The position numbers and the translations under genes were made by a program. DNA of 10,611 nucleotides from Betaproteobacteria bacterium (lineage in GTDB: Bacteria; Pseudomonadota; Gammaproteobacteria; Burkholderiales; Rhodocyclaceae). The notes beneath the pieces were generated by a model that was given only the letters and a program-made list of their open reading frames with translations, was not told the DNA's origin and did not search any database. This document shows, one piece after another, positions 628 through 10,611 of the stretch (position 1 is its first letter; every line of letters begins with the position of its first letter). The DNA is taken from positions 1 through 10,611 of the forward strand of contig JAPTVL010000126.1 in assembly GCA_028065725.1 (NCBI GenBank), written 5' to 3'.

Positions 628-1427
628 ATGGCGTTGCGTCAGGCGCTCAACCTCGCCCCGCTGGCCGTCGTGATTTTCTTTCACGCTGATCCCCCTTCTA
701 CCTGATGTGGGGGCGCAAGCTCCATGCGGCACCGGAGGATCGCGCCCAGGTCATGGCCTTCGACGAAAAGGAGGCCATCACCGATGTCCAGCTACTGAAG
801 CAATCCCTGTCGGTGATCGCCCTGATCATCCTGGGTTTCTCGCTGTCTCACAGCATCGGCCAGGAACCCGCCACCATCTCCATGTTCGGCGCGGTACTAT
901 TGCTGTTGCTGCTGGCCTTCGGCAAAGGGGCCGAGAAGCAATCGCATGAGGTTCATCATACTTTCGGCGAGGTGGAATGGGTGACCATTTTCTTTTTCGT
1001 CGGCCTGTTCGTGGTGGTGGCGGGCGTGGAAAAGGGCGGGGCGCTGACCATACTGGCCAAACAGATCGTTGACTTGACCGGGGGCGACCTGGGTGGCACG
1101 GTCATTGTCATCCTGTGGGTATCAGCCGTGGCCTCGGCGGTGGTGGACAACATCCCCTTCGTTGCCACCATGATCCCGGTGATCCAGAACATGGCGCCGA
1201 CCTTTGGCGCCGAACATCTCAATACGCTGTGGTGGTCGCTGGCGCTGGGCGCCTATCCGGGCGGCAATGGCAGCCTGGTAGGCGCGAGCGCCAATCTGGT
1301 GGTGGCGGGTTTTGCCGAGCGGGCCGGCCAGCCGATCCGTTTCATGCCGTTCCTGCTGATGGCTTTTCCGCTGATGTTGATGAGTATCGCAGTCAGCACT
1401 GCCTACCTCTGGCTGCGCTATTTGTGA
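628..1427 (+). pseudogene. ArsB/NhaD-superfamily permease, C-terminal half with frameshifts
   Basis: The longest intact piece (ATG 705 to TGA 1427, 240 residues) is the second half of an ArsB/NhaD/citrate-type ion permease. It has a cytoplasmic loop GRKLHAAPEDRAQVM, then about six hydrophobic segments, with the family hallmarks VDNIPFVATMIPVI and GGNGSLVGASANLVVAG. Full members are about 430-460 residues, so the N-terminal half is gone. Homology extends upstream of ATG 705 in another frame, as LNLAPLAVVIFF at 646-681. Joining it to the main frame requires correcting the T run near 679-681 and removing one C from the five-C run at 691-695. The remnant starts directly after the broken toxin, with a junction between about 606 and 628. 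Translation from ATG 705 could still yield a half-permease, but loss of function is the simpler reading. The substrate (Na+/H+, arsenite or organic anion) cannot be told. Confidence 0.78.
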
Positions 1428-1456
1428 AAACAGGTTCTCGTCAGAGGGAGAGGCTC

Positions 1457-2095
1457 ATGCACCCGAAATTATTAAGAACCCTTTTCTGCTCGCTGGCGCT
1501 GGCCGGGCTGTTCGTTCATGCCGCCGCCCATGCAGCGGATTGCAGGAAGGAACCCAACGCGCAATGTGCCGGCGCCAACCTGGAATGGGCGGACTGGCGC
1601 GGCGCCAATCTGGAGGGTGTCAATTTCGACGGTGCCAATCTGGAGCATGTCAACCTGTCGGGAGCCAAGCTCAAGGGCGCCAGTTTCAAGGGCGCTAACC
1701 TCATGCTGGCGCAGTTGCGGCAAGCCGACTTGCGTGGAGCAAGATTTGAAAACGCTGACCTCAGCTATGCACATCTGGAAAAAGCCAACCTGGAAGGCGC
1801 CAATCTCAAGCGCGCCCTTCTGGCAAAAGCCGACTTGAAGCTGGTCGATCTGGAAAAAGCTAATTTGGAGGAAGCCGACCTGAAAGACGCCGATCTCAGC
1901 GGCGCCGATCTGGAAAGCGCCAACCTGCGGGGGGCGCGAATGGATTCGGCACGCCTCGGCCTGGTCAATCTCAAGCGGGCGAATCTGACCGGCGCCAGCC
2001 TCAACAACACTTCCTACCGGGGCACGCTGCTCAAGGGTGCGACCTGGGCCGATGGCCGCACCTGTGGCGTGGGCTCGATTGGACGCTGCACGTAA
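1457..2095 (+). CDS. Exported pentapeptide-repeat protein
   Basis: This is a 212-residue protein with a signal peptide (basic MHPKLLR, a hydrophobic core at about 8-22 and a likely cleavage after A-H-A at 24-26), so it should act in the periplasm or outside the cell. From A40 to about T196 it is one unbroken run of some 32 pentapeptides of the A-(N/D)-L-x-x type. Every fifth residue is small (Ala, Val or Thr) and Leu or Phe falls two positions later. This predicts a right-handed quadrilateral beta-helix of about eight coils. Cysteines lie only outside the helix, C29 and C37 before it and C203 and C211 after it, which suggests a disulfide at each end. The C-terminus ATWADGRTCGVGSIGRC resembles the end seen in other proteobacterial members. 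The start ATG has a strong AGAGGGAGAGG site at 1443-1453. The function is unknown; export argues against the gyrase-protection role of cytoplasmic members such as Qnr and MfpA. Confidence 0.88.
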   Translation: MHPKLLRTLFCSLALAGLFVHAAAHAADCRKEPNAQCAGANLEWADWRGANLEGVNFDGANLEHVNLSGAKLKGASFKGANLMLAQLRQADLRGARFENADLSYAHLEKANLEGANLKRALLAKADLKLVDLEKANLEEADLKDADLSGADLESANLRGARMDSARLGLVNLKRANLTGASLNNTSYRGTLLKGATWADGRTCGVGSIGRCT

Positions 2096-2146: not shown

Positions 2147-2275
2147 ATGAAATATCCCTCATCCGGATGGCAGCCATCCGTGGCGCAAATCCCCCACCGC
2201 GACGGCATGCCCTGCCAGGATGAACGCTGCCCCCAATGCGGCGCCAAGATGCTCAGGGAAGGTTCTCGTCACTAG
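2147..2275 (+). CDS. Small ORF with a zinc-ribbon-like cysteine cluster
   Basis: This 42-residue frame runs from ATG 2147 to a TAG at 2273-2275. The second half contains HRDGMPCQDERCPQCGAKML, a C-x4-C-x2-C arrangement followed by C-G-A-K, which looks like half of a zinc ribbon. I do not recognise the family. The ribosome site is poor, only CAGG directly against the ATG. It lies 51 bases after the pentapeptide-repeat stop and in the same frame, so it might be read on the same transcript. A second stop follows soon after the amber codon, in a stretch that runs into the AmrS remnant on the other strand, so this may be the truncated front of a longer gene. It is too short to trust without homologues. 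Confidence 0.35.
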   Translation: MKYPSSGWQPSVAQIPHRDGMPCQDERCPQCGAKMLREGSRH

Positions 2276-2349
2276 GCGCTTTGGCAGTAGAAGAAACAGA
2301 AGCAATCCGGCAAATAGGCGCCGCATCCTCGCCGAAGACGGCCCCCAGC

Positions 2350-2874
2350 GAGCTCCTCGTCGGAGTCGTTCACCCCCGGGATGACCAGGGTGGTCACCTC
2401 CACCCACACCCCTAGTTCGCAATAGAGCCGGATGGCCTGCAGAATCGGCTCGAGGCGGGCGCGGCTGATGTGGCGGTAGCTCTTATCGCGGAAGAACTTG
2501 AGATCCACGTTGGCCGCGTCCAGCACCTGCGCCAGTTCCCTCAAGGGCGCCTCGACGATCTCCTCCGGCAGGTGGGTCTTCGCCCATTGGGAGATCTGCC
2601 AGTTCTGGCAGAAGGTGCAGCGCAGATTGCAGCCCACGGTGCCGATGGAATAGGCGGTGAAGCCGGGATAAAAATGGAACAGGGGCTTCTTCTCCACCGG
2701 GTCGAGCTCTCGGGAGACCACCTTGTCGTAAACCAGGGTTATAGAGCTTGCCGCCGCGATTATAGCGCACTGCGCAGGCCCCGCGTGCACCGTTGGGGAT
2801 GCGGCAGTCGTGGGGACAGAGGGTGCATAGTACCTTGCCGTCCGGGAGGGGAGTGTAGTAACGGCCTCGTGCAT
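2350..2874 (-). pseudogene. amrS: AmrS-type radical SAM protein (AmmeMemoRadiSam system), degraded
   Basis: On the minus strand the frame contains YDKVVSRELDPVEKKPLFHF, the radical SAM motif VGCNLRCTFCQNWQISQ (C-x3-C-x2-C, around 2607-2632), DAANVDLKFFRDKSYRHISR and WVEVTTLVIPGVNDSDEEL. These are signatures of the AmrS radical SAM family. Intact members are about 330-350 residues. Four lesions are visible. One base is missing near 2860 and one extra base lies at 2739-2740; between them about 40 residues, including the N-terminal cysteine cluster, fall out of frame. Roughly 70-100 residues are missing between EEIVEAPLRELAQ and VLDAANVDLKFF. Everything after DSDEEL is replaced by unrelated sequence up to a stop at 2272-2274. 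I place the start at the ATG whose first base is 2874, because MHEAV is the expected N-terminus. An in-frame ATG lies 21 bases upstream. Confidence 0.82.
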
Positions 2875-3139
2875 GAACGATCTCTTTTGACTCAATCCTG
2901 GGCGCCAGCCAGTAAAATTTATTATAGTAAAAGAGATAAACTCTGTTCGCCCGGTTTCGACACGCCCTGGATCTAGGAGACGGGACCCAGGTATCGACCC
3001 TGATCCGGACCTACGGGCGCGCCCATTCCGAGATCTGACCCGCCACGGAGTGGGCGAGGTTCAAGGAGATCCTCCACGGGCTTCCGGGGCAGTGAAACCA
3101 GCTTAAGGCGCGCAAATGGTCCGTGAGATGGCATGAGAA
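2875..3139. other. Gene-poor stretch between the amrS remnant and the plus-strand operon
   Basis: No convincing gene is seen here. The first part is AT-rich and holds the likely upstream region of the amrS remnant on the minus strand. From about 2945 to 3135 the base composition is like coding DNA. One plus-strand frame reads LGDGTQVSTLIRTYGRAHSE, then a stop, then P-A-T-E-W-A-R-F-K-E-I-L-H, and then another stop. That may be a decayed coding sequence, but I cannot assign it. It must also contain the promoter for the genes that follow. I found neither a clear -35/-10 pair on the plus strand nor a good match to a Fur box. Confidence 0.5.
2921..2926 (-). promoter_or_regulatory. Candidate -10 element for the amrS remnant
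   Basis: Read on the minus strand, this is TATAAT, a perfect sigma-70 -10 hexamer. It sits in an AT-rich patch (2911-2940) that stands out in an otherwise GC-rich window, about 47 bases upstream of the amrS start. The matching -35 position (2944-2949, CGAACA on the minus strand) agrees with the consensus only in its last three bases, so the promoter is uncertain. It would now drive a dead gene. Confidence 0.3.
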
Positions 3140-3352
3140 ATGAACGATAAGCCCACCAGGGAATACCTCCGGCTTCGGGCTAGGCTTGAAGCATTCGAGG
3201 ATCTCAAGGCCGAGATCGAGCCGTGGCTCATGGAAGAGCGGGATACCTCGGCGCGCGAGGCGCTGACCAACGTTATCGCCCATCTGGATGCGGAGATCGT
3301 CGAGCAGCACCGCAGCCTCGACGAACTACTCAGGCGGGCGGGCTGGACGTGA
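3140..3352 (+). CDS. Small charged helical protein of unknown function
   Basis: This is a 70-residue protein, rich in Glu, Arg, Leu and Ala, without cysteines, a signal peptide or a membrane segment. Proline occurs only near the start and at E-P-W in the middle. Two long helices are likely (about 7-35 and 38-65), a hairpin or coiled-coil shape. Third codon positions are strongly G or C, as in the operon downstream, which supports real coding. The ribosome site is weak (GAGATGG at 3125-3131, eight bases before the ATG). It precedes the ferritin-like gene by 81 bases on the same strand, so it may be the first gene of the operon or stand alone. I do not recognise a family. Confidence 0.55.
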   Translation: MNDKPTREYLRLRARLEAFEDLKAEIEPWLMEERDTSAREALTNVIAHLDAEIVEQHRSLDELLRRAGWT

Positions 3353-3433
3353 GAGGCGCCTCGGCTCGCCGGCTCGTATTTACTGCTCGAGGGAATCGGC
3401 GCTATCGCTATTTTCCACCACTGAGGATGAATC

Positions 3434-3898
3434 ATGAACCCACTGACCGAAACCGAAATCTGCGCCCTCAACGAGGCGCTCGACGACGAGTACCGTGCCT
3501 GGGCGACTTACGACCAGGTGATTGCCGATTTTGGCGAGGCACCGCCGTTCAGCAATATCCGCGAAGCCGAGGCGCGCCACATCGAGGCGCTTAGCACGCT
3601 GTTTGTGCGCTACGGTCTGCCCATACCCGCGAACCCTTGGCCGGGCAAGGTGATGCGCTACGCCAGCCTGCAAGAAGCCTGCGAAGCGGGGGTGGCAGCC
3701 GAGATCGCCAATGGTGAAATGTACGACCGTTTGCTTGGGGCGACCCAGCGCCCGGACATCCTCACGGTGCTGCGCACTCTGCAGGAGGCGTCGCAGCAGC
3801 GACATCTGGCTGCGTTTCAGCGTTGTGCCCAACGCCCCGCAACTGGCGGTGGCGGGCGTGGCGCGGGACGCCATATGGGCGGAAGGGGGCAGTCATGA
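3434..3898 (+). CDS. Ferritin-like domain protein (DUF2202-like)
   Basis: The 154-residue protein has the four-helix pattern of the ferritin-like DUF2202 group: E-A-L-D-D-E-Y-R-A-W at 14-23, E-A-E-A-R-H-I-E-A-L at 44-53, A-A-E-I-A-N-G-E-M-Y at 88-97 and L-Q-E-A-S-Q-Q-R-H at 116-124. Candidate di-metal ligands are E19, E46, H49, E90, E118 and H124; E46-x2-H49 is the typical E-x-x-H half-site. The linker PANPWPGKVMRYAS is typical of the group. The tail after C131 is Gly/Arg-rich and probably disordered. It has no signal peptide, so it should be cytoplasmic. Members are poorly characterised; iron binding or oxidation is inferred from the fold. ATG 3434 has GAGGA at 3423-3427, six bases upstream, and the stop overlaps the next start as ATGA. 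The position at the head of a metal-uptake operon fits a role in iron handling. Confidence 0.82.
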   Translation: MNPLTETEICALNEALDDEYRAWATYDQVIADFGEAPPFSNIREAEARHIEALSTLFVRYGLPIPANPWPGKVMRYASLQEACEAGVAAEIANGEMYDRLLGATQRPDILTVLRTLQEASQQRHLAAFQRCAQRPATGGGGRGAGRHMGGRGQS

Positions 3899-4905
3899 GT
3901 GCCAAAGCGGAGAAAGGCGGCGGCACTTTCCAGGGCATCAAGCTGTTGCTGTGCGAAAACCCGCTGCCGCCGATTGACGAGGCCATCGCCGCGGCCCAGG
4001 CCGAGGCGCCGCACAGCAACTTCTATACCGAGCCCTATTCGGCGCCGCTGCGCCGGCTTATCAGCGAGCAGATCGGCGTGCCCGAACGGCTCATTCACAT
4101 CAACGCCGGCTCCGAGCTCATCCTGCGCCAGCTGTTTGACCGCTTCGGTCAGCAGGTCCACCTGCTGACGCCGACCTATGTACTCTTTCCCGAGATCGCC
4201 CAGCACTACACGGAAACACGGCTGCTGCCCGAAAACGATTTCGCCTTTGATCTTGCCGAATTGGCGATTCCGCAGGGCACCACACTCGCGGTCATCGTGA
4301 ACCCCAATAACCCCAATGGCGGCATCTTCGACATGACACCCTTGCCAGAACTGTTGCACCGCCACCCGGAAACGCGCTTCCTGGTCGACGAGGCGTTCAT
4401 CGGCCTGGCCGGGCAGTCAGTCGCCCATCTGGTGCCCGAACATCCCAACCTGCTGGTGACGCGCACCCTGTCCAAGGCCCACAGCCTGGCGGGCTTTCGC
4501 ATTGGCTACGCCATATTGCCCGAGGCCATCGCCGACGACCTGAACAGCCACAACGACGCCTACCCGCTCGCCCGCCCCAGTCAGGCGGCGGCCATCGCCA
4601 CGCTTCAGCATGAGGGTAGGATTCATGCCCGTGCCGCGCAATTGCGCGCCTGGACCGAGGAGTTCGCGGCGCAGTTGCACGCCCTGGGCATACGCACCTA
4701 TCCGACCGAGACCTATTTCTTCCTCGCCGACTTCGCGCCTCATGACGCTGCGCATTTGGCAGAGGCGTTCAAGGCACGGGGGATTCTAATCAAACCGTTG
4801 AACGACCCAGCGCTTGGTCCAGGCTATATGCGCGTCACCACGGCATTGCCCGAAGACAACCGGCGGTTCGTTGATGCGCTGCGGGAGTTGCTGTCCCGTG
4901 CCTAG
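3895..4905 (+). CDS. PLP-dependent class I/II aminotransferase, HisC-like
   Basis: This 336-residue fold-type I PLP enzyme resembles histidinol-phosphate aminotransferase and its relatives, which run to about 340-370 residues. Visible motifs are N-P-N-N-P-N-G at 136-142, D165 in VDEAFIG (pyridine-nitrogen contact; the usual Tyr next to it is Phe), K194 in TLSKAHSLAGFRIGYAI (Schiff-base lysine), R202 (phosphate) and R313 in YMRVTTA (substrate carboxylate). It should therefore be catalytically competent. ATG 3895 is chosen over upstream starts because GGAAGGGGG at 3881-3889 precedes it and it overlaps the ferritin-like stop by four bases. No histidine-biosynthesis gene is nearby. The neighbours are metal-related, so the true substrate is probably not histidinol phosphate. 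Relatives also include CobD-type decarboxylases and aromatic transaminases. The reaction is unknown. Confidence 0.85.
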   Translation: MSAKAEKGGGTFQGIKLLLCENPLPPIDEAIAAAQAEAPHSNFYTEPYSAPLRRLISEQIGVPERLIHINAGSELILRQLFDRFGQQVHLLTPTYVLFPEIAQHYTETRLLPENDFAFDLAELAIPQGTTLAVIVNPNNPNGGIFDMTPLPELLHRHPETRFLVDEAFIGLAGQSVAHLVPEHPNLLVTRTLSKAHSLAGFRIGYAILPEAIADDLNSHNDAYPLARPSQAAAIATLQHEGRIHARAAQLRAWTEEFAAQLHALGIRTYPTETYFFLADFAPHDAAHLAEAFKARGILIKPLNDPALGPGYMRVTTALPEDNRRFVDALRELLSRA

Positions 4906-5533
4906 AGTTGCCCCCTTCGAGGCTCACCATCAGCGCTATGAGGCGTGGTTCGAAAAGCACGAGGCTGCTTATATCTCGGAGCTGCTCGCCCTGCGCCCGT
5001 TCGTGCCGTGGGAGGGTCGAGGAATCGAGATCGGGGTGGGCAGCGGCCGCTTCGCCGCGCCGCTGGGGGTGCAGGTGGGTGTGGATCCTTCCGCTGCAAT
5101 GCTGGCCCACGCCGCGGCGCGAGGTATAGAAGCCGTGGAAGGCGTGGCCGAAAACCTGCCTTTCACAGCCGGCAGCTTCGACCACGCCCTGGTGGTGACC
5201 ACCATCTGCTTTGTGGATTCGCCTGCGAGAATGCTTACCGAGGCGCGCAGGGTGCTTAAGCCGGGCGGGCGATTGGTGATTGGCTTCATCGACCGGGAGA
5301 GCACTTTGGGACAAGATTATCTGGTGCACCAGGCAGAGAATGTATTTTACCGCGAGGCCACTTTCTATTCCGCTGACGAGGTGGCACGGCTTCTGCCGGA
5401 AGCCGGGTTCGCGATTAGCGCCTGGGGCCAGACACTCGCGCACCCCCTGCCCGAGACGCGGGAGATCGAACCTCTGCGGACAGGGCGCGGCCAATGTGCG
5501 TTCGTGGTTGTCGCAGCAACGAGTGAGGACTGA
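4898..5533 (+). CDS. Class I SAM-dependent methyltransferase
   Basis: This 211-residue protein has the Rossmann methyltransferase pattern: motif I G-I-E-I-G-V-G-S-G-R-F at 42-52, the acidic end of strand 2 at D63 in GVDPSAAML, A-E-N-L-P-F at 84-89, strand 4 around S-F-D-H-A-L-V-V at 93-100, and R-V-L-K-P-G-G-R-L at 118-126. It matches the Methyltransf_11 type, which acts on small molecules. The acceptor cannot be read from the sequence. I choose GTG 4898, with GGGAG at 4883-4887 ten bases upstream, over ATG 4814, which lies deep inside the aminotransferase gene. With this start it overlaps the aminotransferase stop by eight bases, so the two are probably translationally coupled. The coupling suggests that the two enzymes act on the same pathway. 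Confidence 0.85.
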   Translation: MPRVAPFEAHHQRYEAWFEKHEAAYISELLALRPFVPWEGRGIEIGVGSGRFAAPLGVQVGVDPSAAMLAHAAARGIEAVEGVAENLPFTAGSFDHALVVTTICFVDSPARMLTEARRVLKPGGRLVIGFIDRESTLGQDYLVHQAENVFYREATFYSADEVARLLPEAGFAISAWGQTLAHPLPETREIEPLRTGRGQCAFVVVAATSED

Positions 5534-5536
5534 TCC

Positions 5537-6394
5537 GTGGGAATGATTGCCAAAACCTTCGCGTTTGTGGTCGCACTCTGGGCCTTGCAGGTGGGCGCTG
5601 CGTCAGCTTCCGCGCCGCTGCCGGTGTTCGTGAGCATCCTGCCGCAGAAGTATTTCGTCGAACGCGTCGGCGGCGGGCAGGTTGCGGTTTCGGTCATGGT
5701 GGGCTCCGGGCAGAGCCCGGCAACCTACGAGCCGACGCCGCGCCAGATGACGGCGCTGTCCCGGGCGCGGCTTTACTTTTCTATCGGGGTGGCGTTCGAG
5801 GACACCTGGATGAAGCGCATCCAGGCCGCGAACCCTGCCTTGCGCGTGGTGCCCATGCAGCGCGGCGTCGAGCTGCTGCCCCTGACCGGCCCGGGCGGCA
5901 AACCCACCGGCACGGATCCGCACATCTGGACCAGCCCGCCGCGGGTGAAGATCATGGCGGCAATCATCCGCGATGCCCTGATTGAGGCCGACCCCGCCCA
6001 CCGTGGCGACTACGAATCGAACTATCTGGCGTTCAGCTCCGAGCTGGACGCGCTGGATCTGGAAATCCGTACCATTCTTGCATCGGCCAAAGGCAAGCCC
6101 TTCCTGGTGTTTCATCCATCCTGGGGCTACTTCGCCAAAGACTACGCACTGCGCCAGATTCCTATTGAGGCCGAGGGCAAGGAACCGGGAGCCAAGGCGC
6201 TCGCGCGCGTGATCGATCTCGGCAAGCGGGAGGGCGTGAAGGTCATCTTCGTGCAGACCCAGTTCAGCCGGCGCACCGCCGAGACTGTCGCCGCGGCCAT
6301 CGGCGCCCGGGTGGTGGGAGTGGACCCGCTGGCGGAAAATTATCCGCAAAACCTGTTGCGGGTCGCGCATGAATTCGCCGACGCCTTGAAATGA
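5537..6394 (+). CDS. Metal ABC transporter substrate-binding protein, ZnuA/TroA-like
   Basis: The 285-residue protein has a signal peptide (hydrophobic to about residue 20, cleavage near A-S-A-S-A) and the cluster A-I metal-binding fold, with V-F-V-S-I-L-P-Q-K-Y-F at the start. Likely ligands are H129 in DPHIWTSP, H193 in FHPSWGYFA and D263 in VDPLAENYP. Where classical members have a His before Y-E-P-T-P, this protein reads GSGQSPATYEPTP, with Q59 in place of His, so the site is altered. The His-rich loop of many ZnuA proteins is also missing. It captures a divalent metal in the periplasm and passes it to the permease two genes downstream; Zn, Mn and Fe are all possible. GTG 5537 is preferred over ATG 5543 because GAGGA at 5525-5529 is seven bases upstream of it. 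It lies three bases after the methyltransferase stop. Confidence 0.87.
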   Translation: MGMIAKTFAFVVALWALQVGAASASAPLPVFVSILPQKYFVERVGGGQVAVSVMVGSGQSPATYEPTPRQMTALSRARLYFSIGVAFEDTWMKRIQAANPALRVVPMQRGVELLPLTGPGGKPTGTDPHIWTSPPRVKIMAAIIRDALIEADPAHRGDYESNYLAFSSELDALDLEIRTILASAKGKPFLVFHPSWGYFAKDYALRQIPIEAEGKEPGAKALARVIDLGKREGVKVIFVQTQFSRRTAETVAAAIGARVVGVDPLAENYPQNLLRVAHEFADALK

Positions 6395-7143
6395 AACCGG
6401 TCATCGAACTGAAGGACGTTTCCTTCGCCTACGACATCGGCCCGCCGGCGCTGGAACATGTCAGCCTGGCCGTGGGGGAAGGCGAGTTCCTGGGCCTGGT
6501 GGGGCCAAACGGCGGCGGCAAGAGCACACTGCTCAAGCTTGTGCTGGGGCTGCTCCGGCCAGGTTCCGGCGAGGTGCGCGTGGCCGGTGGAACCCCGCAA
6601 GAATCACGCAGGATGATCGGTTATGTGCCGCAATATGCCCGCTTCGCCCGCGACTTCCCGATTTCGGTAGAGGAGACGGTGCTGCTGGGACGACTCGGCA
6701 CTACCCGATTGCTGGGCGGCTACCGTGCCGCAGACCGCGAGGCGGCGCACCTGGCGATGACGGAGACCGAGGTGCTGGACCTGCGGCAGCGCCCGCTCGG
6801 CACCCTCTCCGGCGGACAGTTGCAGCGGGTGCTGGTGGCGCGGGCACTCGCCTGCGACCCGCGCATCCTGATTCTGGACGAACCCACCGCCAACATCGAC
6901 CTGCGTGCCGAAACCGAGATTTTCGACCTGTTCAAGGCGCTCAACCAGCACATGACCATCGTCGTCGTCTCCCACGACATCGGTTTCATCTCGCGCTATG
7001 TGACCCGCGTGGCCTGCCTCAACCGCACCCTGCTGTGCCACCAGCCGGCGCCGATCGGGTCGGCAGCGATCGAAAAACTGTATGGCATGCCGGTGCAGCG
7101 CATTCCGCACAGCGATGCTTGCGAGACGGAGGCGAAACCATGA
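6391..7143 (+). CDS. Metal ABC transporter ATP-binding protein (ZnuC-like)
   Basis: This 250-residue ABC ATPase is complete: Walker A G-P-N-G-G-G-K-S-T at 38-46, Q-loop Q81 in GYVPQ, signature L-S-G-G-Q at 139-143, Walker B I-L-I-L-D with catalytic E164, and H-loop H195 in VVSHD. It resembles the ZnuC/MntB group that energises A-I metal importers and sits on the cytoplasmic face of the permease. The start overlaps the stop of the substrate-binding gene as ATGA, and its own stop overlaps the permease start in the same way, so the three importer parts are coupled. The last 40 residues (with H-Q-P-A-P-I-G-S and a Cys near the end) are typical of family tails and show no recognisable sensory domain. 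Substrate specificity cannot be inferred from the ATPase. Confidence 0.92.
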   Translation: MKPVIELKDVSFAYDIGPPALEHVSLAVGEGEFLGLVGPNGGGKSTLLKLVLGLLRPGSGEVRVAGGTPQESRRMIGYVPQYARFARDFPISVEETVLLGRLGTTRLLGGYRAADREAAHLAMTETEVLDLRQRPLGTLSGGQLQRVLVARALACDPRILILDEPTANIDLRAETEIFDLFKALNQHMTIVVVSHDIGFISRYVTRVACLNRTLLCHQPAPIGSAAIEKLYGMPVQRIPHSDACETEAKP

Positions 7144-7994
7144 GCGCGTTCCTGGAGGCGCTTTTTAGCCACGCGTTTCTGCAGCACGCCCTGGCCGCCG
7201 GCGTGCTGGCCAGCATCGCCTGCGGCATCGTCGGCAGCTATGTGGTGGTCAAGCGCATCGGCTACCTCGCCGGCGGCGTTGCGCACACCGTGCTGGGCGG
7301 CATGGGCATCGCCTATTTCCTGGGCAAAAGCCCGATCGGCGGCGCGCTCATCGCCGCGCTGCTGGCGGCGCTGATCATCGGCTGGGTGAGCCTGCGCTTC
7401 CGCCAGCACGAGGACACCATCATCGGGGCGCTGTGGGCGGTGGGCATGGCCATCGGGATTCTCTTCATCTCGCGCACGCCGGGTTACAACGTGGATCTGA
7501 TGAGCTACCTGTTCGGCAACATCCTCATGGTACCGCGCGAGGATCTGCTGCTCATGGCCGGCCTGGACGGCGTGATCATCGCCCTGGTGTGGCTATTCCG
7601 CAAACAATTTCTCGCCGTGTGCTTCGACGAGGAGTTCGCCCGCCTGCGCGGCATGCCAGTCGACGTGTTCTACCTGGGACTGTTGCTGATGGTGGCCTTG
7701 ACCGTGGTGATCCTGATCCAGGTAGTGGGTCTGGTGCTGGTGATCGCGCTCCTGACCCTGCCGGCCGCCATCGCCAGCCAGTATGCGCGTTCGCTCGCCA
7801 CCATGATGCTGACGGCGACGCTGCTCGGGGTCATTTTCACCAGCGCGGGGCTGGCGCTTTCCTATGAACCGGATTCGCCCGCCGGCGCCACCATCATCCT
7901 GCTGGCGGGAGTGGCCTACCTGCTTTCGGCCCTGGGCCGGGGAATCTGGCTGCGCTGGCATCGCACCACGACCCTTCCAGAAGCGAAACCATGA
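7140..7994 (+). CDS. Metal ABC transporter permease (ZnuB-like, ABC-3 family)
   Basis: A 284-residue integral membrane protein with about eight hydrophobic segments, the usual size for ABC-3 permeases of Zn/Mn/Fe importers. Family features seen are GSYVVVKRIGYLAGGVAHTV near the N-terminus, D-L-M-S-Y-L-F-G-N-I-L at about 120-130, and the stretch V-G-L-V-L-V-I-A-L-L-T-L-P-A-A-I-A in the second half. The coupling loop with the E-E-F-A-R-L-R-G motif (about 163-170) should contact the ATPase. The frame is open further upstream, but ATG 7140 overlaps the ATPase stop by four bases and gives the family-like N-terminus. It forms the membrane channel of the importer and its stop overlaps FeoA, which links the ABC importer to the Feo genes in one transcript. 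Confidence 0.92.
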   Translation: MSAFLEALFSHAFLQHALAAGVLASIACGIVGSYVVVKRIGYLAGGVAHTVLGGMGIAYFLGKSPIGGALIAALLAALIIGWVSLRFRQHEDTIIGALWAVGMAIGILFISRTPGYNVDLMSYLFGNILMVPREDLLLMAGLDGVIIALVWLFRKQFLAVCFDEEFARLRGMPVDVFYLGLLLMVALTVVILIQVVGLVLVIALLTLPAAIASQYARSLATMMLTATLLGVIFTSAGLALSYEPDSPAGATIILLAGVAYLLSALGRGIWLRWHRTTTLPEAKP

Positions 7995-8248
7995 GCGGTC
8001 ACCCGCACGTCCCCCTCGATCAGCTCGCACCCGGCGCGCACGCGATCGTGCGGGAGATCCGGGGAGGTGCTGACTTCTCGAGCCGCCTGGCGGCGATGGG
8101 GCTTACAAAGGGAGCACGCATCGAGATCCTGCAGAACGCCGGGCGGGGTCCTGTACTGGTGCGCGCGCACGAAACCCGCATTGCCCTGGGCCGGGGAGAG
8201 GCGCTGAAGATCCTGGCGGAAGAGACAAGCGATGAGTCGCCAGGCTGA
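7991..8248 (+). CDS. feoA: FeoA, SH3-like accessory protein of ferrous iron uptake
   Basis: An 85-residue protein with the FeoA pattern: P-L-D-Q-L-A-P-G at the start, F-S-S-R-L-A-A-M-G-L-T-K-G-A-R-I-E-I-L in the middle, and G-P-V-L-V-R-A-H-E-T-R-I-A-L-G-R-G-E-A near the end, the beta-barrel typical of FeoA. FeoA is a small cytoplasmic partner needed for full FeoB transport activity. Its mechanism is still debated. The start overlaps the ABC permease stop as ATGA, and its 3' end overlaps feoB by 17 bases. Length and position fit the family, and no defect is visible. Confidence 0.92.
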   Translation: MSGHPHVPLDQLAPGAHAIVREIRGGADFSSRLAAMGLTKGARIEILQNAGRGPVLVRAHETRIALGRGEALKILAEETSDESPG

Positions 8249-10250
8249 GCCCACGCCGAAACAACGGACGCTCCTGGTGGGCCTGGCCGGGCAGCCCAAC
8301 GTCGGCAAGTCCACCCTCTTCAACCTGCTGACGGGCCTCTCCCAGCACGTCGGCAACTGGCCCGGCAAGACGGTGGAGCGCAAGGAAGGCATGCTGGACC
8401 ATGACGGGACACGGATGCGGCTGGTAGACCTGCCGGGGACCTACAGCCTGACCTCGCACAGTCTTGAGGAGCAAGTGGCGCGCGACTTCATCATCCACGA
8501 GCACCCGGACATCATCGTGATGGTGGCCGATGCCTCTTCCCTGGAGCGCAATCTTTACCTGCTCGCCGAGTTGCTGATCCTGCGCGTCCCGGTAGTGCTT
8601 GCACTCAACATGCTGGATGTCGCCGAGGCGCAGGGCATCCAGATCGAACCGCACGTGCTGGAGGCGGCGCTGGGCTTGCCCGTGGTGTCCATGGTGGCGA
8701 CGCGCAACCAGGGACTCGCCGAGCTCATCGCCGCCATCGGGCATCTGGCGTGCAACCCGGACACCTTCCACCCGGTGCGGCCGCAGATCGCCGCGCCGCA
8801 CCGGGGGGTACTCGATCAACTGAAGGAGATGGTGGCGGGGCAGCTTCCAGCGCCGTTTGATCCGGATTGGGTGGCACTCAAGCTGCTGGAAGGGGATGCT
8901 GAAATCACCCGGAAAGCCAAAGGCTGGGCCGGTGAACGGGTCTGGCCCGGGATCGAAGCCCTGCTGAGCGCGCATGAAGACGCGGTGCTGGACATCGCCA
9001 GCGGCCGCTACGAATGGATAGGCCGCATGGTACGGGCCGCAGTGACCCGCCCGCGCCTCGGACAGGTGAGCCTTACCGACAAACTGGACCGGGTCGCGTT
9101 GCATCCGCTGTGGGGTCTGGTGCTCCTCTTCAGCGTTTTCGCGGCCGTGTTCTGGTTCACCTTCACACTCGCAGTCCCGGTCCAGGAGTGGCTGGACGTA
9201 ACTGTCGTCGGACAGGCGCGTGCGGCGGTGCGGCATTTACTCGCCGGCGCGCCGGGCTGGCTCGCCGCCCTCGTCGCCGAAGGCGTGCTGGGCGGGGCCG
9301 GTCTCGTTCTCACTTTCCTGCCTGTCCTGGCGTTATTCTTCGGCGCGCTCGCGCTACTGGAAGACACCGGCTATCTCGCACGCAGCGCCTATGTGATGGA
9401 CCGCTTCATGCACGCGCTCGGGCTGCATGGCAAGAGCTTCCTGCCGCTCTTTCTCGGCTTCGGCTGCAACGTGCCGGCGGTGATGGGTGCACGGGTGATC
9501 GAATCGCGCGGCGGGCGGCTGCTCACCATCCTGCTCGCCCCATTGGTGCCATGCAGCGCGCGCCTCGTGGTGCTCGCCTTCCTCGCCCCGGCCTTCTTCG
9601 GAGCGGCGGCGCTGCCGGTCGCGCTCGCCCTCGTCGCGCTCAACCTGATGGTGCTGGCGCTGGCGGGCATAACGCTCAACCATACGCTGTTTCGCGGCCA
9701 GCACATGGCCTTCATCATGGAGCTGCCGCTCTACCACATGCCGAACGCCCGCACCATCGGCACCTCTGTCTGGAACAACACCTGGGCCTTCGCGCGCAAG
9801 GCGGGAAGCTTCATCCTGCTCGCCTCGGTGGTGGTCTGGACGTTGAGCTACTTTCCCACCGGCGCCCTCGAACAAAGCTACCTCGCCCGCATCGGGCATA
9901 AGCTCGCGCCGCTCGGCGAACTGATGGGCATGGACTGGCGCATGCTGGTCGCGCTCATCGCCGGCTTCGTCGCCAAGGAGAACGTCATCGCCACCCTCGG
10001 CATCCTCTACGGGCAGGGTGGAGGCGGTCTGGCCCGCACCCTCGCCGCCCAGGTTTCGCCCGCCTCGGCGCTCGCCTTTCTCACCGTGACCATGCTCTTC
10101 ATCCCCTGCCTGGCCACGGTGGCGGTCATGCGCCAGGAAACGGGAAGCTGGCGCTGGACGCTGTTCGATATCGCACTGCTGCTTGCCATCGCGCTGGGCG
10201 CAGGCATCCTCGTCTATCATGGGGCGGGAGCGCTGGGAATGGAGGGCTGA
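8232..10250 (+). CDS. feoB: FeoB, GTP-dependent ferrous iron transporter
   Basis: This 672-residue protein has an N-terminal G domain and a C-terminal membrane domain. The G motifs are complete: G1 G-Q-P-N-V-G-K-S at 20-27, the switch region G-N-W-P-G-K-T-V-E, G3 D-L-P-G at 66-69, G4 N126-M-L-D129 and G5 around S153-T157. The membrane part carries the two conserved gate repeats: GFGCNVPAVMGARVIESR with C412, followed by VPCSARL with C441, and GFVAKENVIATLG with E583. It imports Fe(II) across the inner membrane under low-oxygen or reducing conditions. It is shorter than E. coli FeoB (773 residues), within the range of other bacterial members. The start is supported by GGAAGAG at 8219-8225. It overlaps feoA by 17 bases and its stop directly abuts feoC. 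Confidence 0.96.
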   Translation: MSRQAEPTPKQRTLLVGLAGQPNVGKSTLFNLLTGLSQHVGNWPGKTVERKEGMLDHDGTRMRLVDLPGTYSLTSHSLEEQVARDFIIHEHPDIIVMVADASSLERNLYLLAELLILRVPVVLALNMLDVAEAQGIQIEPHVLEAALGLPVVSMVATRNQGLAELIAAIGHLACNPDTFHPVRPQIAAPHRGVLDQLKEMVAGQLPAPFDPDWVALKLLEGDAEITRKAKGWAGERVWPGIEALLSAHEDAVLDIASGRYEWIGRMVRAAVTRPRLGQVSLTDKLDRVALHPLWGLVLLFSVFAAVFWFTFTLAVPVQEWLDVTVVGQARAAVRHLLAGAPGWLAALVAEGVLGGAGLVLTFLPVLALFFGALALLEDTGYLARSAYVMDRFMHALGLHGKSFLPLFLGFGCNVPAVMGARVIESRGGRLLTILLAPLVPCSARLVVLAFLAPAFFGAAALPVALALVALNLMVLALAGITLNHTLFRGQHMAFIMELPLYHMPNARTIGTSVWNNTWAFARKAGSFILLASVVVWTLSYFPTGALEQSYLARIGHKLAPLGELMGMDWRMLVALIAGFVAKENVIATLGILYGQGGGGLARTLAAQVSPASALAFLTVTMLFIPCLATVAVMRQETGSWRWTLFDIALLLAIALGAGILVYHGAGALGMEG

Positions 10251-10526
10251 ATGCTCAGTGAAGTATTGCGCCTGGCCGTCGAGCGGGGCACCACCAGCAG
10301 CGAGGAACTGGCGCGAGCGCTTGACACGAGCCCGGAGCTGGTACACGTAGCGCTTGAGGAACTTGCGCGACGCGATTACCTCCAGGCCGTGGCACCTGGC
10401 TGTTCCGCGGCCTGCGAGCGCTGCCCTCTGCGCGCAGCCTGCCTGTTTCGCCGCCAGCCGCGGGTATGGACGCTCACCCGCAAGGGTGATGCATGGGTGG
10501 CAAAAGAACATGATTCAGTGAGGTAA
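10251..10526 (+). CDS. feoC: FeoC-like winged-helix protein with a four-cysteine cluster
   Basis: The 91-residue protein has a winged-helix N-terminus (helix at about 2-12, T-T-S-S-E-E-L-A-R-A-L-D-T-S as helix-turn-helix, then V-H-V-A-L-E-E-L-A-R) and a cysteine loop, C51-x3-C55-x2-C58-x5-C64. This matches FeoC/HTH_15 proteins, in which four cysteines can hold an oxygen-sensitive iron-sulfur cluster. It may regulate Feo transcription or protect FeoB from proteolysis, roles proposed for other FeoC proteins. The basic linker R-R-Q-P-R-V-W-T-L-T after the cysteines forms the wing. The ATG follows the feoB stop with no gap, and AATGGAGG at 10237-10244 can serve as the ribosome site. It is the last gene of the operon, followed by a hairpin. 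Confidence 0.85.
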   Translation: MLSEVLRLAVERGTTSSEELARALDTSPELVHVALEELARRDYLQAVAPGCSAACERCPLRAACLFRRQPRVWTLTRKGDAWVAKEHDSVR

Positions 10527-10527
10527 A

Positions 10528-10546
10528 CCCCCGGCTATGCCGGGGG
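10528..10546 (+). terminator. GC-rich hairpin after feoC
   Basis: CCCCCGGC at 10528-10535 and GCCGGGGG at 10539-10546 form a perfect eight-base stem with a three-base TAT loop, two bases after the feoC stop. No T run follows (ACTCAGTCAGG), so it is not a classical intrinsic terminator. It could stop transcription partly, pause it ahead of Rho, or protect the 3' end of the long transcript. Confidence 0.6.
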
Positions 10547-10559
10547 ACTCAGTCAGGTT

Positions 10560-10577
10560 TGACCGTTCCGGCGGTCA
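10560..10577. terminator. Second, smaller hairpin downstream of feoC
   Basis: TGACCG at 10560-10565 pairs with CGGTCA at 10572-10577 around a six-base TTCCGG loop. It is followed by TTAAAAAG, again without a real T run. With the hairpin just upstream it may form a tandem termination region. On its own it is weak evidence. Confidence 0.3.
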
Positions 10578-10611
10578 TTAAAAAGCAACAATAAAATTCA
10601 GAAACATCATT

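Follow-up and report, generated by a model that had tools for sequence, protein, structure and literature searches.

FeoABC and ABC importers of the ZnuABC/MntABC type are the closest described systems to the transport genes of the locus reported here, and HisC and CobD are those closest to its aminotransferase. In the window, as we call the whole analysed stretch of 10,611 nucleotides of betaproteobacterial DNA (contig JAPTVL010000126.1), ORF and profile analysis revealed nine almost contiguous genes on the + strand (3434-10526), encoding in this order a ferritin-like protein (FerL), an aminotransferase (AT), a methyltransferase (MT), the metal-binding protein (SBP), ATPase and permease of an ABC importer, and FeoA, FeoB and FeoC (Table 1). 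Their number, strand and span were exactly those given by a sequence-only reading of this DNA, as were the junctions between them (-4, -8, +3, -4, -4, -4, -17 and 0 bases, negative values denoting overlaps). The gene types it had named, namely ferritin-like, aminotransferase, methyltransferase, ABC importer and FeoABC, agree with the Pfam matches and, for FerL, are compatible with the fold model.

Table 1. The nine operon genes and further features of the window.
Feature	Position	Strand	Basis
FerL, ferritin-like four-helix protein	3434..3898	+	sub-threshold DUF2202, structure model, conserved Glu/His
AT, PLP aminotransferase, non-HisC subfamily	3895..4905	+	PF00155; below HisC/CobD cut-offs; family-specific invariant residues; HisC/CobD fold
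MT, SAM-dependent methyltransferase of class I, start codon GTG	4898..5533	+	PF08241 (Methyltransf_11); best solved relative 1VLM
SBP, ZnuA-type metal-binding protein of ABC importer	5537..6394	+	PF01297, 227 bits
ABC ATPase	6391..7143	+	PF00005 (ABC_tran)
ABC-3 metal permease	7140..7994	+	PF00950, 261 bits
FeoA	7991..8248	+	PF04023
FeoB ferrous iron transporter	8232..10250	+	TIGR00437, 559 bits, cut-off 315.65; Pfam FeoB_N/Gate/FeoB_C
FeoC-like protein	10251..10526	+	PF09012, 21.2 bits, cut-off 21 (barely passes)
Ion-transporter-like piece, 240 aa	705..1427	+	best NCBIfam model MamN, 69 bits, far under cut-off
Pentapeptide-repeat-like protein	1424..2095	+	translation judged visually
Shortened AmmeMemoRadiSam radical SAM gene	2272..2895	-	127.8 bits, cut-off 220, two stretches
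70-aa ORF immediately 5' of FerL	3140..3352	+	no match in Pfam/NCBIfam

Both transport systems have their expected genes in the expected order, FeoA, FeoB and FeoC domains on the one hand, with FeoC only just above its cut-off, and a ZnuA-type SBP, an ATPase and an ABC-3 permease on the other; the SBP scored below the AztC, MntC and ZnuA equivalog cut-offs of the NCBIfam models. What the window adds to these systems are the overlapping FerL, AT and MT genes in front, and we know of no other operon in which these three stand ahead of FeoABC and an ABC importer. No sigma-70 site was found in a scan of 2860-10611, and no Fur box was detected with one consensus and up to three mismatches allowed. 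Terminator-like sites numbered 9 against an expected 4.4 (sd 2.0), most of them within genes. At the gathering threshold, no metal riboswitch was detected in a search that covered eight loci besides the window; its sole match was a selenocysteine tRNA gene 3' of AT in locus L008 (6298-6389, - strand).

In databases, AT carries a HisC-type name. It is a fold-type I aminotransferase by its match to PF00155 (Aminotran_1_2; 111.9 bits, cut-off 19.7), and K194 and D165, which we take to be the PLP lysine and aspartate, are invariant in the AT sequence alignments. With HisC (TIGR01141) it shares the fold, the PLP lysine and the PLP-binding residues at about 30% identity to HisC paralogues, and HisC is still its best-scoring NCBIfam model (193.4 bits). 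Together with the database name, these likenesses would favour a second histidinol-phosphate (or similar) transaminase that raises the supply of histidine, a metal ligand, but we consider this improbable, since the HisC cut-off of 276.55 bits is reached neither by the AT of the window nor by any of the 47 AT copies among the matches listed in 49 genomes, and 46 of these 49 genomes already have a separate protein above it. Moreover, C20 and K300 of AT stand where the three HisC paralogues compared have Asn and Arg; at the latter position, whose Arg in HisC presumably contacts the substrate phosphate, at least 97% of 49 AT sequences, and 27 of 27, have Lys. Against the CobD model (TIGR01140), AT scored 149.1 bits where 290.55 are needed. 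The AT structure model is moderate (pLDDT 78) and its fold, that of HisC/CobD, cannot discriminate between the two; scores, residues and the separate HisC genes of the AT genomes speak against AT being either of them. Judged by its sequence, AT is a separate subfamily filed under the HisC label, and the other components of the operon are members of known families.

The neighbours of AT were surveyed at 53 loci chosen regardless of what surrounds them, comprising the window, 30 loci of a pattern search (which gave 35, five distant ones being left out), 20 further loci of genome searches and two loci of one haloarchaeal plasmid. They represent at most 52 genes, L029 and L114 probably being halves of one gene, and L073 and L074 are identical. 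Neighbours were detected with reference proteins drawn from these same loci, and genes were called with a seeded gene caller, which still misses small ones. In 28 of the 53 loci, AT has a ZIP transporter gene (PF02535) on its own strand no more than 1.5 kb away, as it has in 25 of the 41 loci with at least 1.5 kb on both sides; where the nearest ZIP is within 3 kb, it is never on the opposite strand, though L014 has a second, opposite one about 2.5 kb away. Usually the ZIP gene ends a few bases 5' of AT or of FerL, and 4-base overlaps in ZIP-FerL-AT or AT-ZIP order were seen at several loci, with a FerL gene that follows ZIP and overlaps AT by 4 bases in L001, L017, L071 and L100.

In three loci, namely the window, L021 and L112, an ABC importer replaces ZIP beside AT. 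The series AT-SBP-ATPase-permease-FeoA-FeoB-FeoC is seen again in L021, with identities of 47-77%, behind an encapsulated-ferritin-like gene, while L112 displays VIT1-AT, a run of N, and then SBP-ATPase-permease. Because the order recurs in L021 and, as VIT1-AT-ABC, in L112, it is more than chance. An apparent AT-SBP fusion of 626 aa in L112 was rejected, as the run of N separates the two. When every kind of metal transporter is counted, 31 of the 53 loci have one on the AT strand at up to 1.5 kb; 22 have no reference metal transporter within that distance, the ZIP gene being about 3 kb off in L005 and about 7 kb off in L055.

The sequence-only reading had tied an aminotransferase-methyltransferase pair to metal handling. 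For AT this is strongly supported by its 28 loci with ZIP and 31 with any metal transporter, as against no reference neighbour at all around 30 true HisC genes from these genomes, taken with flanks of up to 1.5 kb; for the pair as a unit it is not, MT being near AT in 13 of 53 loci. Neither is AT found mostly away from metal genes, which was named as the case that would speak against the link, though the 22 loci just mentioned have to be kept in mind. As for the partners that had been proposed for counting, feoB and the ABC genes, Feo is rare (the window and L021) and the ABC importer occurs in the three loci named, ZIP being the usual partner. In a separate Pfam listing, read by eye, at least 26 of 49 genomes had a ZIP match no more than 2 kb from AT. 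By an estimate made from at most 184 ZIP matches, fragments included, in about 155 Mb and summed by hand, chance would give about 0.3 ZIP neighbours in these 49 genomes, where 27 loci were observed.

A tree of AT from 49 of the 53 loci requires at least 11 changes of the ZIP neighbour, 10 of MT and 10 of FerL, and therefore these links do not go back to one inherited event. In the family of a Thiobacillus genome (117 genomes), a close form of ZIP, defined by at least 63% identity, a threshold chosen after seeing a gap down to about 53%, occurs in nine of 18 AT genomes against seven of 99 others (p 4e-5). In one of the nine (G625), ZIP lies about 10 kb from AT. Among the seven genomes with the close ZIP and without a full AT, two revealed AT remnants, a 36-residue piece behind ZIP (L162, 2615-2722) and a 34-residue piece near a contig end (L164). 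ABC genes 50-55% identical to those of the window are present in two relatives without AT, which means that the transport parts do not need AT.

Aminotransferase-methyltransferase pairs that make beta-methyl amino acids are known from MppJ, MarI/MarG and GlmT. AT and MT might follow the same logic, from a keto acid via C-methylation to re-amination, which is no more than an analogy; a literature search for a link between AT-MT and beta-methyl amino acids found nothing. The best solved relative of MT is 1VLM from Thermotoga maritima (E 3e-58), which matches over nearly the full length and supplies no substrate, and neither function nor substrate was found in a search of the open literature on TM1293/1VLM. 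Against the DVU_1556 family methyltransferase model (NF045667), MT scored 54.2 bits, below the cut-off of 155. MT is a same-strand neighbour of AT, at up to 1.5 kb, in 11 of 53 loci, and with both strands and up to 3 kb allowed the count is 13 (partial in L015 and in L028 of Sulfuricella sp. T08). Within the 117-genome family, three genomes have MT, all of them among the 18 with AT (Fisher p 0.003), so that 15 of the 18 are without it, and a search at E<=1e-15 gave a match in 10 of 16 AT-bearing genomes or records, seven of them close, and none in six. The AT-MT pair is real but optional, and the conserved unit is AT; the coupling proposed by the sequence-only reading recurs in bacteria and on a haloarchaeal plasmid, but does not amount to a conserved unit.

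Ten plasmid records carry MT, of which seven were inspected (one of two places in Salinirubellus was seen). The Halomicrobium urmianum plasmid has AT-MT twice, divergently arranged, one copy with ZIP alongside. On a Natrinema plasmid MT adjoins ZIP and AT is absent, on a Salinigranum plasmid a truncated MT lies about 1.5 kb from ZIP, and on plasmids of Halomicrococcus, Salinirubellus, Aquicella and Legionella anisa MT occurs without ZIP or AT. Pieces of AT precede an intact MT in L009 (C-terminal piece, 6206-6968) and in genome G661, where both AT ends were found (L159, 1303-1505; L190, 3503-4333), and each of these two genomes has a full AT elsewhere. These pieces, like the one behind ZIP in L162, look as if AT had been lost in place. 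In L002, a different class I methyltransferase (PF13649; 4437-5183) adjoins AT, as if replacing MT.

FerL showed no Pfam match above cut-off, scoring 19.8 bits against DUF2202 (PF09968; cut-off 22). Its predicted structure is a confident four-helix bundle (pLDDT 89.8), for which MJ0754 is the nearest solved fold (E 1.1e-4), followed by weak matches to Rv2844 and bacterioferritins (E 1.5e-3 and worse, for bacterioferritins 2.7e-3 and worse; TM about 0.7). Six sequences all have E19, E46, H49, E90 and H124. FerL, found near AT in 11 of 53 loci with some copies partial, would be an oxidase or a store for iron.

Relatives 67-89% identical to the AT of the window were found in Beta- and Gammaproteobacteria, several deltaproteobacterial lineages, Nitrospirota, Planctomycetota and named haloarchaea, the last covered through plasmid records; many of the bacterial contigs are metagenome bins, for which individual lineage assignments may err. 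Presence is patchy, with AT in 6 of 399 genomes in the order of Sulfuricella, 7 of 158, 18 of the 117 mentioned above, 3 of 22 and 1 of 20, each group including the genome on which it was centred. From the high identity together with the patchy presence we infer that AT probably spreads horizontally. Syntrophia and Myxococcia rows fall among Betaproteobacteria in the AT tree, in which good support was obtained for only 14 of the 48 inner branches. Spread by viruses or phages was rejected, as no relative was confirmed in viral_contigs and phages gave only matches under 32% identity.

Such patchy spread would also be expected of a mobile stress island, the main rival explanation, by which AT would be a part of general stress metabolism and would travel, under shared regulation, with MT, Usp, KatG, peroxiredoxin, cytochrome bd, ferritins and metal transporters. 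Usp, KatG, peroxiredoxin and cytochrome bd do recur near AT, with Usp as a same-strand neighbour at up to 1.5 kb in 11 of 53 loci, NDH in six, EncFtn-like genes in five and MBL in four; furthermore, the plasmid MT of Aquicella is near groEL/hsp20 and an integrase, that of Halomicrococcus near thioredoxin/MsrA. However, of the neighbours tested ZIP is by far the commonest, its spacing is tight, several loci showing 4-base overlaps, and different metal importer families occupy the same place, so that co-travel with stress genes appears less likely to us. The KatG, peroxiredoxin, EncFtn-like and ferritin genes would also fit an AT that supplies alpha-keto acids reacting with hydrogen peroxide and thereby shields the cell during iron uptake, as keto acids quench peroxide. 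Within 3 kb of AT, however, KatG (3 of 53) and peroxiredoxin (6 of 53) are rarer than ZIP, and MT is given no role, which makes such a shield quite improbable.

For an AT that is not HisC, is linked to metal importers, recurs with unrelated importer families and is spread patchily across phyla, we tentatively prefer, at a probability of about 0.4, the reading that the operon represents one version of a mobile cassette for metal import, in which an AT core is joined to differing importers and the AT product handles the imported metal. The core would be the new AT subfamily, while the importer would vary, being mostly ZIP, here a ZnuABC-like ABC importer with FeoABC, and once VIT1 with an ABC importer; FerL and MT would be frequent optional members. 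Since the linked importers of unrelated families share a divalent-metal substrate class, AT probably has a role in dealing with the metal as it enters the cell or afterwards. It would make or break a small amino or keto acid other than histidinol phosphate, most likely making one that handles imported Fe, Mn or Zn, and MT, where present, would methylate this product. The product, which may be a small chelator or a modified amino acid, would buffer or deliver imported Fe(II), Mn(II) or Zn(II). More doubtful is the further step that AT, with MT where present, makes a new intracellular metal ligand and forms a portable module attached to ZIP, ABC plus Feo, or VIT importers. Evidence against the cassette reading comes from the 22 loci without a near metal transporter, the recurring stress genes, the ABC and ZIP genes without AT, the frequent absence of MT and the scans that gave neither a riboswitch nor a Fur box.

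No account of a linkage between AT and metal importers was found in the open literature, to which the search was confined, subscription papers lying outside its scope. AT is annotated as a transaminase of histidine biosynthesis, yet its neighbours, in bacteria as well as archaea, point to metal import. Should its product be a metal ligand, there would be a small-molecule layer between importers and metalloproteins which is now hidden by annotation. AT also offers a genetic handle on the cellular buffering of labile Fe(II), Mn(II) and Zn(II).

Some further observations were made at individual loci. In L163, from a genome without AT, the close ZIP gene is followed on the same strand by a relative of FeoB with 60% identity. 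Downstream of ZIP-AT in L020, a protein of 454 aa (11195-12559) is encoded that has no match in Pfam/NCBIfam. In anaerobes, MT (L075, 8701-11926) or AT (L023, 1812-7204) occurs with dinitrogenase-cofactor-like (PF02579) and MinD-like ATPase genes and with no importers. Full-length members of the AmmeMemoRadiSam radical SAM family, of which the window has a shortened gene, directly adjoin AT in L019, L023 and L026.
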